A stretch of DNA of 64,000 nucleotides, from NCBI GenBank assembly GCA_013815385.1, contig JACDGL010000003.1:62001-126000 (forward strand). Direction: 5' to 3'. Below the pieces are notes generated by a model. The model was not told the DNA's origin. It saw only the letters and a list, made by a program, of their open reading frames with translations, and made no database searches. Of the stretch, positions 34,308-42,820 are shown piece after piece; the first letter of the stretch is position 1, and every line of letters begins with the position of its first letter. The stretch comes from Taibaiella sp. Its GTDB lineage: Bacteria > Bacteroidota > Bacteroidia > Chitinophagales > Chitinophagaceae. The translations under genes and the position numbers were made by a program.

Positions 34308-34676
34308 GCGCCCCAGGCCAATCAGGGAACCCCGCCGGAAGGTAAGCCGTAATAGCTTCTAGCTGCCCTTTTTGCTTACTTTTTTGGGCAAGCAAAAAGT
34401 AAAGAACAACACGAGCACATAACATAAACACACAACATCCTTGCGAGGAGGCTTTGCGACGAAGCAACCCCGCTATAACCCGAGCAAAGCCCGGCACTAC
34501 AGCAGCGCCCAGGCCCCATCAGGGCACCCCGCAGGCAGCAAGCGGTAATCGCTGGCCTGCTGCCCTTTTTTGTTACTTTTTTGGGCAAGCAAAAAAGTAA
34601 AGAACAACACGAGCACATAACATAAACACACAACATCCTTGCGAGGAGGCTTTGCGACGAAGCAACCTCGCCTCCC
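34308..34676. repeat. Tandem pair of a ~197-base intergenic repeat unit
   Basis: Unit 1 (34308-34504) and unit 2 (34505-34676) align along their length. An 83-base core, from gggcaagc to gacgaagcaacc, is almost identical in both. Each unit carries an inverted repeat of the type CTTACTTTTT/AAAAAGTAAG (one arm decayed in unit 2). A third, inverted copy lies at 54209-54420. Several frames run through the repeats but share only repeat-derived peptides, so they are not taken as genes. Confidence 0.85.
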
Positions 34677-37680: not shown

Positions 37681-38679
37681 ATGAGCACAATACGCCACAA
37701 CTGGACTATTGAAGAGATACGATCCATATACCATAACCCATTGCTTTCTTTAATACTGGATGCAGCACAGGTACACAAGCAAAACCATACTTACGGTGAA
37801 GTGCAGATAAGCAGCCTGCTCTCAATAAAAACAGGTGGGTGCAGCGAAGACTGTGCTTATTGCCCGCAAGCCGCCCGCTACCACACAGATGTGAAAGTGC
37901 ACGCTCTGATGAAAACCGAAGATGTGGTAACAGCAGCACAGAATGCAAAGACCGGCGGTGCTTCCCGATTCTGTATGGGTGCTGCCTGGCGAGAAGTGAG
38001 AGATAACAGGGACTTTGACAGGGTCCTTGATATGGTGAAAGCAGTAAACGCACTTGATATGGAAGTATGTTGCACGCTCGGCATGCTAACAGGAGAGCAG
38101 GCCAGCAAACTCGCTGATGCAGGCCTTTACGCTTACAATCATAATGTAGATACATCCGAAGAGCATTATGAACAGATAATTACCACCCGTACTTATGAGG
38201 ACCGTCTGCAAACGCTATCGAATGTGCGACAAGCCGGCATATCTGTCTGCAGCGGTGGTATCATAGGCATGGGAGAATCAGATGATGACCGCATTGGGAT
38301 GCTGATGACCCTGGCTAACCTGCCCGAACATCCGGAGTCTGTACCGATAAACGTATTGGTACCTGTAGCTGGCACACCCCTCGCAGATAGCAAACGTGTA
38401 CCATTCGATGAACTGGTGCGCATGATAGCAACTGCGCGTATAATGATGCCCCACTCAGCGGTACGCCTTTCGGCCGGAAGGCTGGAGCTATCTATTGCCG
38501 AGCAGGCGATGTGCTTTATGGCAGGTGCTAATTCCATATTTGCAGGCGACAAGTTGCTCACTACACCCAATCCTGAATTTAACAGCGACAAGCAAATGTT
38601 TAAGATACTTGGATTAACCCCTAAAGCAGCATTTACAGACGTCCCTAAAAAGAATATAGTGCAGCATGAGCAAGCTTGA
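37681..38679 (+). CDS. bioB: Biotin synthase
   Basis: The 332-residue radical SAM enzyme has C54-x3-C58-x2-C61 ([12 protein letters not shown]) and conserved motifs [28 protein letters not shown] and the [2Fe-2S]-binding arginine region ([16 protein letters not shown]). BioB inserts sulfur into dethiobiotin. It opens the operon bioB-bioF-bioD-bioA-di-iron gene and overlaps bioF by 14 bases. Confidence 0.97.
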
Positions 38680-39796
38680 GCTGTACTTACAAAAGAAAAT
38701 TAAAGACCGTCAACTAGCTGGTAATCTGCGGCAGTTAAAGATAGCTGCGGCACCTATAGACCTATTCTCCAATGATTATCTGGGGCTGGTAACTACCGGT
38801 GTATTACCTGCGCTTATCAGTAAAAAATATGGCACTTCGCTGGCAACCGGCTCAACGGGATCCAGACTACTTTCAGGCAACAGCGTGATCGCAGAAATGT
38901 TAGAGCAGAACATAGCAACTTTTCATGATGTGGAAGCAGCATTATTATTCAATAGCGGGTATGATGCCAATGTAGGCTTGCTCAGCGCTATAGCAGACCG
39001 GCACACCACCTATATATATGATGAGCTGTGCCATGCCAGCATCATAGATGGGATAAGGCTAAGCCAGGCACAGGTACACTATAAATACCGGCATAATGAT
39101 ATAGCAGATTTGCAGGAAAAAATAAACCTCGCAAAAGAAGGGCCTGTAATTGTAGTAACAGAATCTGTATTCTCAATGGATGGAGATATGGCACCACTAC
39201 AAAACATAGCAGGCATATGCATGCAATACAATGCGTCGCTGGTAATTGATGAAGCGCATGCAACCGGTGTATTTGGGAACCAGGGGAAGGGATTAGTACA
39301 TGCACAAAGTATAGCCACACAAACATTTGCCAGAATACATACTTATGGTAAGGCCATGGGATGCCATGGCGCAGCAGTGGTGGGTAGCACTGTGCTAAAA
39401 CAATATCTTATCAATTTTGCGCGGTCATTTATATATACTACAGCATTACCTGAGCACACACTCTGTGCAATAGAATGTGCCTATGGATACCTGGGTAGCT
39501 CCGTTTACTCAAACGAAGTATTACATGATCTTGTGGCATACTTCCGTAAACAGGTAGCAGGTAGTAACATAAAAGGATGGAACAATAGCAGCAGCCCTAT
39601 ACAGGCGTTAGTGATTGGCAACAATGAGCGAACCAGACATATAGCAGGTATACTGCAACAGGACGGACTCCAGGTAAACGCAATCCTTTCTCCTACTGTA
39701 CCGGCAGGAAGTGAGCGGCTGCGTATTTGCCTGCATACTTTTAATACATACGAGCAAATAGACCTTCTGTTAAAAATACTGGCAACTCATTTATGA
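38666..39796 (+). CDS. bioF: 8-amino-7-oxononanoate synthase
   Basis: The 376-residue PLP enzyme of the alpha-oxoamine synthase family has [47 protein letters not shown] and the PLP lysine K229 in [10 protein letters not shown]-like context ([12 protein letters not shown]). It condenses alanine with pimeloyl-thioester. [11 protein letters not shown] motif and the biotin operon context distinguish it from 2-amino-3-ketobutyrate ligase and SPT. Its end overlaps bioD by 4 bases (ATGA). Confidence 0.95.
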
Positions 39797-40422
39797 ATAA
39801 GCGTATAGCTATAGCAGGCATACATACCGATATTGGCAAGACCATTGCATCAGCTGTGATAGCAGAAGCAATTGGTGCTGACTACTGGAAACCTTTGCAA
39901 GCTGGCAACCTGGAGCAAAGTGACACAATAGTCGTCCGCTCGCTTCTTGGCAATAAAAATTCAATAGTGCACAAGGAAGCAGTGAGATTAACGCAACCGT
40001 TATCACCACATGCCGCCGCCGCTATTGATGGTAAGACAATAGACTATAAGGGCTTTACGTGGCCTGCAACTCTTAATACTTTATTGATAGAAACTGCAGG
40101 TGGCTTATTATCCCCGGTATCTGAGCATAACACTGTTGCAGATTTTATTCAGTATTACCAACTGCCTGCCTTACTTGTATCTAAGAACTATTTAGGTAGT
40201 ATCAATCACACACTGCTTAGTATAGAAGTAATGAAAGCAAGAAATATACCTATACTGGGTATAATAATGAACGGCGATAGTAATGGAGCATCAGAACAAT
40301 TTATAACCACTTACACACAAATACCCATCATAGCCACCATACCAAAAATGGAAGAACTGAATATAGCTTCCATTTACCAATGTGCAGCCCGAATAAAAGA
40401 ATCTCTGCTACAATATCTATAA
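39793..40422 (+). CDS. bioD: Dethiobiotin synthetase
   Basis: The 209-residue ATP-dependent ligase has the P-loop variant AGIHTDIGKTIASAV at residues 8-22, DYWKPLQAGN and LIETAGGLLSPV. It closes the ureido ring of diaminopelargonic acid. The start overlaps the bioF stop as ATGA, and bioA begins 1 base after the bioD stop. At the end it lacks nothing compared with known short BioD proteins. Confidence 0.94.
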   Translation: MNKRIAIAGIHTDIGKTIASAVIAEAIGADYWKPLQAGNLEQSDTIVVRSLLGNKNSIVHKEAVRLTQPLSPHAAAAIDGKTIDYKGFTWPATLNTLLIETAGGLLSPVSEHNTVADFIQYYQLPALLVSKNYLGSINHTLLSIEVMKARNIPILGIIMNGDSNGASEQFITTYTQIPIIATIPKMEELNIASIYQCAARIKESLLQYL

Positions 40423-40423
40423 C

Positions 40424-41707
40424 ATGGCAAGCATTACAGAAAGAGACCGCAATGTGATATGGCACCCATATACCCCTATGAAGCTATGGCCTGAAGCCAT
40501 CGGCATTGTGAGTGGCAGTGATGAATTCCTTTTTGATGAACAGGGGAAGCGATATATAGATGCTATATCATCCTGGTGGGTAACCCTGCATGGACACGCA
40601 CATCCATATATTGCCCAAAAGATAAGCGAACAGCTTACTAAGCTGGAGCATTGCATTTTTGCGGGTTTTACACATGAGCCGGCTGTGCAGCTGGCAGAGC
40701 GACTATTAACAATATTACCAGGCAAGCCGGAAAAGATATTCTTTTCAGACAATGGCTCTACCGCTGTAGAAGTAGCCATAAAAATGGCGCTGCAATACTA
40801 TAATAACAAAGGGCAAAAGCGCAAGAGAATAGTAGCGCTGGAGCATGCTTATCATGGAGACACATTTGGCGCAATGTCTGTGAGTGGGAGAAGTATATTT
40901 ACTGAAGCATTTGATTCTTTTTTGTTTGATGTGGACTTCATCCCTTTTCCAAATGAAGAAAATAAAGAACACAGTATTGCAACTTTAAAAAAGCTATTGG
41001 CAAACGGGGATGTAGCTGCATTTATCATAGAGCCTCTGGTGCAGGGTACAGCAGGCATGTGTATGTATCCGCCTGAGGTACTAGACGCTTATTTCAGGTT
41101 GTGCAAAGAGCAGCATACACTAATAATTGCAGATGAGGTAATGACGGGATTTGGAAGAACGGGGACGTTGTTTGCCTGCGATACGGTGTCCGCAGCTCCT
41201 GACATCATCTGCCTATCCAAAGGATTGACCGGAGGAACAATGCCTTTAGGTGTTACTGCATGCACAATAGACGTTTTTAATGCTTTCTACGATGACGACC
41301 GCGGGAAAACTTTATATCATGGACATTCCTTTACCGCCAATCCTATAGCCTGCACCGCCGCACTTGCCAGCCTTGACCTGCTAGAGAAAGATGAGTCAAC
41401 CGAAAACAGAAAGAGAATTGCAGCTCGGCATACAGAATTTGCCAGTTTGATAGCCAATCATAAAAATGTAGTTGCAATAAGACAGGCGGGTACAATACTG
41501 GCAATAGAACTAAACACCAGCATGCCCACCTCATACAATCATAATAAGAGAGATTTTATTTATAGTTTTTTTATTGATCGGGGTATTTTGATACGACCAC
41601 TGGGAAATATAATATACGTAATGCCCCCTTATTGTACGTCTGATGAATCATTAATGCTGATATATTCATGCATACAAGAATTACTATTAACTTTAGACAA
41701 TCAATAA
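40424..41707 (+). CDS. bioA: Adenosylmethionine-8-amino-7-oxononanoate aminotransferase
   Basis: The 427-residue class III aminotransferase has HPYTPMKLWP near the N-terminus, ISSWWVTLHGHAHPYI, FFSDNGSTAVEVAIKMA, ADEVMTGFGRTGTLFA and the PLP lysine K266 in CLSKGLTGG. The WW pair and HPYTP signature are typical of SAM-using BioA. It is fourth in the operon; only 4 bases separate its stop from the di-iron gene. Confidence 0.95.
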   Translation: MASITERDRNVIWHPYTPMKLWPEAIGIVSGSDEFLFDEQGKRYIDAISSWWVTLHGHAHPYIAQKISEQLTKLEHCIFAGFTHEPAVQLAERLLTILPGKPEKIFFSDNGSTAVEVAIKMALQYYNNKGQKRKRIVALEHAYHGDTFGAMSVSGRSIFTEAFDSFLFDVDFIPFPNEENKEHSIATLKKLLANGDVAAFIIEPLVQGTAGMCMYPPEVLDAYFRLCKEQHTLIIADEVMTGFGRTGTLFACDTVSAAPDIICLSKGLTGGTMPLGVTACTIDVFNAFYDDDRGKTLYHGHSFTANPIACTAALASLDLLEKDESTENRKRIAARHTEFASLIANHKNVVAIRQAGTILAIELNTSMPTSYNHNKRDFIYSFFIDRGILIRPLGNIIYVMPPYCTSDESLMLIYSCIQELLLTLDNQ

Positions 41708-41711
41708 TTTT

Positions 41712-42389
41712 ATGAAACAGGAGCAGCTGACCTTAATTATCGGTAAGATAACCGCATCATCTGTATTGCACGCCAAGTGGCTCAATACCCTGTCTATGAT
41801 GGAAAATACGGGCGCACGAAAGATATCGCGTTATGAACATCCTATACAAACTGATATCGTTGTTTTGAAGCATGCTGCTGAAGAGGCACGCCATGCTTAC
41901 TACCTGAAAAAAATGATAGCCCGTGTAATACCGGGTTATTGCCCCGACTACTCTTATGATTACCTGCTGGCGCCTATAGAAAGCCACCATTACCTGCACC
42001 GCCTGGATACAGAAACGTGCCGCTACCTGAAGCACCACAGTGGATGGAAAGCCAGACAATTAAAGCATGGCGCCTACCTGCTGGTTACCTACGCCATAGA
42101 ACTGCGCGCTGATATGCTTTATGCAGCATATCAGGATGTATTGACTGCAATTAACTCAAAAGTGAATGTAAAGACGATCATTAAAGAAGAAGAAGGGCAT
42201 TTGGCAGAAATGACCCGTATGCTGCAGGATTTCTACCCCGGATGGGAGAAATTAGCAGAGGATGTGCTTAAAATAGAAAGCAACCTTTTTGCTAACTGGA
42301 TGCAGGCAATAAAACAGGAAGTAGTTTATATACCCACCAATATTAAGATCTCGCTAAATGTGGAACAATTGAAGCCAAACTTTAATTAG
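41712..42389 (+). CDS. Ferritin-like di-iron protein of unknown function in the biotin operon
   Basis: I do not recognise a named family. The 225-residue, all-helical protein carries four segments with di-iron spacing: Glu31, E58-A-R-H61 (ExxH), Glu130 and E160-E-G-H163 (ExxH). The gaps (27, 72, 30 residues) match ferritin-like oxidases and oxygenases such as MiaE-type, CADD-type or acyl-ACP desaturase proteins. It starts 4 bases after bioA and is the last gene of the biotin operon, so it is surely cotranscribed. No bioC, bioH, bioG, bioW, bioI or bioZ homologue is in the window. Inference: a possible oxidase or hydrolase-like step in pimeloyl or biotin synthesis. A general redox role is the alternative. 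Confidence 0.8.
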   Translation: MKQEQLTLIIGKITASSVLHAKWLNTLSMMENTGARKISRYEHPIQTDIVVLKHAAEEARHAYYLKKMIARVIPGYCPDYSYDYLLAPIESHHYLHRLDTETCRYLKHHSGWKARQLKHGAYLLVTYAIELRADMLYAAYQDVLTAINSKVNVKTIIKEEEGHLAEMTRMLQDFYPGWEKLAEDVLKIESNLFANWMQAIKQEVVYIPTNIKISLNVEQLKPNFN

Positions 42390-42556: not shown

Positions 42557-42820
42557 ATGACGTATTACGACTTTGAAAAGGAAGTATTGCTTCTGGTAGC
42601 TAAAGACCACTACCAGTATTACCGGCATATACTACCGGCAATACGGCATACCTTCAGAGAACGTTTCATTAATACGATAATATCCGGTTTTGATATACCT
42701 ACTTCTTTTGACCATGTGAGTATGGCCAGTAAGCTGCCCGATATATACTACACCCGTTACCTGAAATTTGTATACACTAAAGTACAGAAAACGGAGCAAC
42801 ACAATCCGCAACTTGCCTGA
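42557..42820 (+). CDS. Hypothetical 87-residue protein
   Basis: The start ATG follows a good GGAGG sequence (TTGGAGGTTTTCACTTT). The product (MTYYDFEKEVLLLVAKDHYQ...) is polar, tyrosine- and histidine-rich and helix-like without membrane segments. I recognise no family. It lies after a 167-base gap that follows the biotin operon and is convergent with the thioesterase gene (3-base gap). Confidence 0.5.
   Translation: MTYYDFEKEVLLLVAKDHYQYYRHILPAIRHTFRERFINTIISGFDIPTSFDHVSMASKLPDIYYTRYLKFVYTKVQKTEQHNPQLA

Follow-up and report, generated by a model that had tools for sequence, protein, structure and literature searches.

The last gene of the biotin cluster in the window (the whole 64-kb stretch of DNA analysed here) encoded a ferritin-like protein that, judged from its sequence and its gene neighbourhood, is very probably BioE, the di-iron enzyme of pimeloyl supply. 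An earlier note on this DNA had guessed that the protein supplies the pimeloyl precursor by oxidation, which fits the BioE biochemistry given in the published account (Zhang et al., Adv Sci, December 2025, PMC12915131) as well as the comparisons presented below; its further suggestion of an undescribed step was overtaken by that same publication. The BioE step is thus known since 2025, and what is new is this member of the family, a gene order in which bioE comes last, and the lack of a close BioL in the genome.

The founding BioE paper is reportedly Xu et al. 2025, in PNAS. In the later account, BioE from Elizabethkingia meningoseptica (EmBioE) and Chlamydia psittaci (CpBioE) is a ferritin-like di-iron oxygenase that cuts C14-C18 acyl-ACP at C7-C8 into a pimeloyl thioester, the Elizabethkingia enzyme taking acyl-CoA too (PMC12915131). 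The enzyme requires oxygen, replaces BioC-BioH in E. coli, and has a metal centre that was likened to that of cADO (PMC12915131). With homologues sought at an identity to EmBioE above 40% and a coverage of 85%, carriers were reported among Chitinophagaceae and other Bacteroidota and, outside Bacteroidota, among Burkholderiaceae and Chlamydiaceae (PMC12915131). A MocR repressor, BioL, is said there to accompany BioE in most species, adjacent or apart, and not in Chlamydia; the published gene order is bioL together with bioEFD, and EmBioE was reported to need BioL to avoid harm and to burden laboratory E. coli when overexpressed, CpBioE not (PMC12915131).

The candidate bioE closed a compact biotin cluster (Table 1). 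Genes bioB and bioF overlapped by 14 nt and bioF and bioD by 4, a single base separated bioD from bioA, and four bases (TTTT) lay between the end of bioA at 41707 and the start of bioE at 41712. These coordinates agreed with the tight bioB-F-D-A arrangement, followed 4 bases past bioA by a further gene, that had been described earlier, and bioB, bioD and bioA exceeded their NCBIfam cut-offs. The bioF label stood as far as the best NCBIfam match for that gene is concerned, at a score under the cut-off of the model. The open reading frame and the six residues E31, E58, H61, E130, E160 and H163 named in the earlier note were all recovered, and a recount on the translated frame returned the same spacings (E31-E58, 27; E58-E130, 72; E130-E160, 30). 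Scans for promoters and terminators gave signals no better than in shuffles. An 87-aa open reading frame without a Pfam match followed 3' of bioE (42557-42820, plus strand) and is not known to be part of the cluster. Elsewhere in the window, a 108-nt direct repeat occupied 34366-34473 and 34564-34671, with copies 89% alike and a start-to-start distance of 198.

Table 1. Genes of the biotin cluster and codons of the putative di-iron ligands, in window coordinates
Feature	Coordinates	Strand	Evidence
bioB, biotin synthase	37681..38679	+	TIGR00433, 399.6 bits vs cut-off 225
bioF, 8-amino-7-oxononanoate synthase	38666..39796	+	best match TIGR00858, 340 bits, below cut-off 426; context
bioD, dethiobiotin synthase	39793..40422	+	TIGR00347, 112.8 bits vs cut-off 83.3
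bioA, DAPA transaminase	40424..41707	+	TIGR00508, 552 bits vs cut-off 405
Probable bioE, 225-aa ferritin-like di-iron oxygenase, end of cluster	41712..42389	+	ORF, alignment, model, neighbourhoods
Putative ligand codon Glu31 (= EmBioE E26, CpBioE E41)	41802..41804	+	positions published in PMC12915131
Codons 58-61, ExxH, putative ligands Glu58/His61 (= EmBioE E53/H56, CpBioE E68/H71)	41883..41894	+	positions published in PMC12915131
Putative ligand codon Glu130 (= EmBioE E125, CpBioE E140)	42099..42101	+	positions published in PMC12915131
Codons 160-163, ExxH, putative ligands Glu160/His163 (= EmBioE E155/H158, CpBioE E170/H173)	42189..42200	+	positions published in PMC12915131

The window protein agreed with both characterised enzymes in the six di-iron ligands and their spacing, in most acyl-pocket residues and in its biotin-cluster setting, a likeness that was gauged at the residue positions published in PMC12915131. 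The published ligands of EmBioE fell on the six residues of the window protein at a single gap-free offset of +5 (6/6), and those of CpBioE at a single gap-free offset of -10 (6/6), so that the published pattern E, ExxH, E, ExxH with spacing 27/3/69/30/3 was present in full. At the offset of -10, 9 of the 11 hydrophobic acyl-pocket residues reported as needed in CpBioE were identical in the window protein, while 51 other offsets gave at best 4/11; the two differences were L40, replaced by M30 of the window protein, and L205, replaced by N195. The four inhibitor-pocket residues reported for EmBioE were all the same (4/4). On the proposed CoA/ACP face, identity amounted to 3/7 residues versus EmBioE (R36, K37 and H96) and to 1/6 versus CpBioE (K37), with R36 standing conservatively for K46. 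The Bacteroidota lineage range was also shared with the published enzymes, as was the occurrence in carriers without BioC/BioG over cut-off (PMC12915131).

Family libraries alone would leave the protein unnamed, since no Pfam or NCBIfam model passed its cut-off (rubrerythrin, COQ7, AurF and encapsulin ferritin appeared below threshold only) and a sequence search of the PDB gave nothing significant, with one chain at E 0.94. Homologues were found mostly beside biotin genes. A scan of near relatives, with one genome per species, gave 28 loci, 20 of which lay directly 3' of a bioA match; the remaining 8, all from Larkinella, had no bioB, bioF, bioD or bioA match within 8 kb on either side. In the host's family, the gene occurred in 38 of 294 sampled genomes (39 matches), and loci from 30 of these 38 genomes entered the comparison. 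After removal of the identical copies L006 and L029, the 63 loci collected came down to 61 distinct ones, window included. Gene bioA was directly upstream in 39 of them, as tblastn matches of 35-100% identity (100% being the window itself); 27 of these 39 also showed bioB, bioF or bioD, and the other 12 showed none within the flank available. Five more loci had the gene at the head of an E-F-D order with a divergent MocR-type gene upstream, an arrangement that these homologues share with the published BioE (PMC12915131). A Pfam check of three of these five regulators showed GntR and aminotransferase domains in each. No bio gene was seen in the flanks of 17/61 loci, namely 7 from Larkinella (8 kb each side) and 10 with about 1.5 kb of flank or less. 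Homologues that never neighbour bio genes, which had been named in advance as a ground for doubt, were therefore not what was found, as 44 of the 61 distinct loci adjoined such genes.

The ligand pattern was a property of the family. The exact six-residue spacing was present in 37 of 1008 open reading frames (at least 134 aa long, taken from the loci collected by then and the window, not de-duplicated), and all 37 were family members by coordinates and length, so the pattern is not a matter of chance. It was kept in 52 of the 61 family members; nine deviated, one of them cut by a contig end. Residues E31, E58, H61 and E130 were invariant in a 22-row alignment, and E160 and H163 were conserved at 90% or more (one row ends before them). 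The conserved core of these 22 rows, which contains the ligands, read WLNTLSMMEN.GARKI, LKHAAEE.RHAYYLKK, YLLVTYAIEVRADELY and EE..HL.EM. A stop was held by 3 of the 61 matched stretches (L017, L105 and L122), that of L017 preceding its ATG. The gene was also located 3' of bioA in records labelled as a gammaproteobacterial MAG (L026) and an Ignavibacteria MAG (L027, cut by the contig end), which may reflect either transfer or mis-binned contigs. One divergent, unlinked member (L035, genome G048; branch 3.29) may have another role; the bioB region of the same genome (L069) had no bioF, bioD or bioA beside bioB.

The AlphaFold model (mean pLDDT 92.4) displayed a helical bundle with the putative ligands in helices 17-41, 49-72, 114-146 and 154-174. 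In a first Foldseek pass, none of the matches reached E 0.001; designed bundles and F-BAR domains headed the ranking, with AetD (E 0.12) and MiaE (E 0.53) among them. A second structural aligner ranked ADO-type proteins first (Z 17.4, rmsd 2.4, 175 aligned) and MiaE next (Z 16.8, rmsd 2.5, 174 aligned), followed, with Z between about 12.5 and 14, by CADD, TenA, AetD, UndA, PqqC and R2-like oxidases. Because values of Z around 13 perhaps express the mere common arrangement of helical bundles, the first rows alone stand out. ADO-type proteins and MiaE have a ferritin-like di-iron centre, and we know of no link of either to biotin. The fold predicted for the window protein is shared with both, while their reactions are others and identity was low (14-17% in these two rows, 7-17% over all of the closest solved folds). 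The structural check proposed in the earlier note thus yielded a predicted helical bundle resembling di-iron oxygenases, and a shared fold by itself shows no function.

These closest folds could also suit an unrelated di-iron protein placed behind bioA, performing aldehyde deformylation, tRNA hydroxylation as MiaE does, or a self-sacrificing reaction like that of CADD, and the Larkinella copies and some others do lie away from bio genes. Such a job is nevertheless exceedingly unlikely, since 44/61 distinct loci adjoined bio genes in two different gene orders, bioB was present in 28/28 carrier genomes, and the solved folds in question are only 7-17% identical to the window protein. The reading of the gene as a mere passenger was rejected on the linkage to bio genes, the co-occurrence with bioB and the residue match to BioE.

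For the families and cut-offs searched, BioE was found in biotin-synthesising genomes in place of BioC/BioG and BioW and, in the own genome, of P450. The sample of the host's class comprised 149 genomes, with the own genome among them. The BioE family was present in 7 and bioB over cut-off in 91; BioC passed its cut-off in 2, BioG was found in these same 2, and BioW in none (0/149). Carrier genomes all had bioB over cut-off (28/28 near relatives and 7/7 from the class sample, versus 91/149 in the class sample as a whole), and none had BioC over cut-off (0/28 and 0/7) or BioG (0/28 and 0/7); one of the 28 seems to be the same as one of the 7, L009 and L029 being identical. The genome search for bioC, bioG and bioW that the earlier note had called for gave no BioC over cut-off, no BioG and no BioW in the own genome, and no P450 match was obtained there either (7/14 controls matched). 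The BioC cut-off of 185 bits is strict, since no more than 2/149 genomes and a single one of the 14 controls passed it, and a divergent BioC could have escaped it. Methyltransferases matched the BioC model below threshold in 148/149 and 28/28 genomes, with a best score of 63 bits in the own genome. The BioG model matched 0/14 controls but 2/149 genomes, which indicates that the model works.

Other known enzymes of pimeloyl supply belong to different families: BioI, the cytochrome P450 of Bacillus subtilis, is a haem enzyme, BioZ is a FabH relative, and BioH is a generic alpha/beta hydrolase. BioI yields a pimeloyl thioester through oxidative cleavage of long-chain acyl-ACP (PMC12915131), as would the BioE of the window, from which it differs as a haem enzyme of another family and by the lack of a P450 match in the own genome.

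A biotin-cluster di-iron oxidase could alternatively act at some other step, by protecting BioB from oxygen, by handling iron or sulfur for BioB, or by oxidising a different biotin intermediate. Cluster linkage alone would fit any biotin role, and the rubrerythrin and encapsulin ferritin profiles, which the protein resembled weakly and below threshold, might be read in this direction. This alternative is very unlikely in view of the residue-by-residue match with published BioE, acyl pocket included (PMC12915131), of the MocR-E-F-D order in relatives, and of the need for a pimeloyl source in a genome that gave no BioW or P450 match and no BioC/BioG over cut-off. Moreover, the family was lacking in 84 of the 91 class-sample genomes that carry bioB, and is thus not a general BioB helper. 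A BioB-protecting role was rejected on this count, together with the residue match and the neighbourhoods.

Most of the class-sample genomes with bioB (82/91) showed no BioE, no BioW and no BioC/BioG over cut-off. The bioB neighbourhoods inspected covered 30 loci and 20 regions, out of the 91 bioB-bearing class genomes, and a complete bioB-F-D-A set was present in 7 of the 16 bioB regions that came from such genomes (L066, L073, L074, L075, L077, L080 and L082). The 82 genomes could draw their pimeloyl moiety from BioZ or a divergent BioC, from other enzymes, or from pimelate that is scavenged. In three of these regions, whose genomes are without BioE, BioC/BioG and BioW, a related open reading frame of 237-253 aa was located between bioB and bioF (L074:12217-12978, minus strand; L075:11180-11917, minus strand; L080:5975-6688, plus strand). 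It had no Pfam match and, by eye, a signal-like start and the look of an outer-membrane protein, and it might serve the uptake of pimelate or of another precursor.

The regulator BioL is not defining for BioE, as the Chlamydia enzyme functions in its absence, and its distribution among carriers was uneven. No BioL match was found within the 64-kb window, and the best match in the own genome (24% identity, 112 bits) was not a close one, so the window was not filed as a BioE-BioL module. In contrast to the published BioE-BioL pairs (PMC12915131), bioE of the window ends a bioB-F-D-A-E cluster, and its genome gave no close homologue of BioL. With the G076 regulator as reference for the genome comparison, the regulators beside bioE matched at 69% in G021 and 59% in G040, versus 43% in G114 and 41% in G135, two carriers in which the matching gene lies elsewhere; G048 had no match. 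Near full-length BioL-type matches (40-44%) were detected elsewhere in the genome in 9 of the 28 near-relative carriers, namely 8 Larkinella and G157, the latter seemingly the same genome as G135. The remaining carriers of this set had only distant matches, either short pieces or matches along most of the length at 27% at most, and G175 had none.

A tree built from the 61 sequences had the BioL-E-F order in only 5 rows, all of them in a single 6-row branch (98/90), and the bioA-E order to either side of the midpoint root and in the majority of larger branches. It seems possible, if somewhat doubtful, that the BioL-free, bioE-last form is older and more widespread and that the BioL-paired E-F-D form is a derived side branch; "older" and "more widespread" are here what we infer, as the midpoint root serves the drawing alone, several rows sit on long branches, and the sampling favours the host's family and its near relatives. 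Since unchecked EmBioE is harmful, BioL-free enzymes would then choose their substrates differently, taking acyl-ACP alone like the Chlamydia enzyme, or be restrained by another regulator.

A mechanism can be proposed that joins what was observed here (the gene and its residues, a conserved neighbourhood of bio genes, a predicted helical fold, and a genome with no BioW or P450 match and no BioC/BioG over cut-off) with iron binding, C7-C8 cleavage and O2 dependence carried over from the published BioE work (PMC12915131). Two irons would be held by E31, E58, H61, E130, E160 and H163 inside the helical bundle, and a long-chain acyl-ACP, perhaps acyl-CoA too, would enter a hydrophobic channel. With O2 and electrons from some donor, the chain would be cleaved between C7 and C8, and the pimeloyl thioester produced would pass to BioF, encoded in the same cluster. 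That the window orthologue runs the same reaction is what we infer, as are its substrate form, electron donor and regulation.

The survey sharpens the question of the pimeloyl source in the 82 of 91 bioB-bearing class genomes without BioE, BioC/BioG over cut-off or BioW. As a cluster ending in bioE with no close BioL, the system described here indicates that natural BioL-free hosts can be used to test the BioL need published for EmBioE (PMC12915131). The assignment also provides a likely role for a gene for which neither Pfam nor NCBIfam has a model that passes its cut-off, and which is carried by 38/294 genomes of the host's family.
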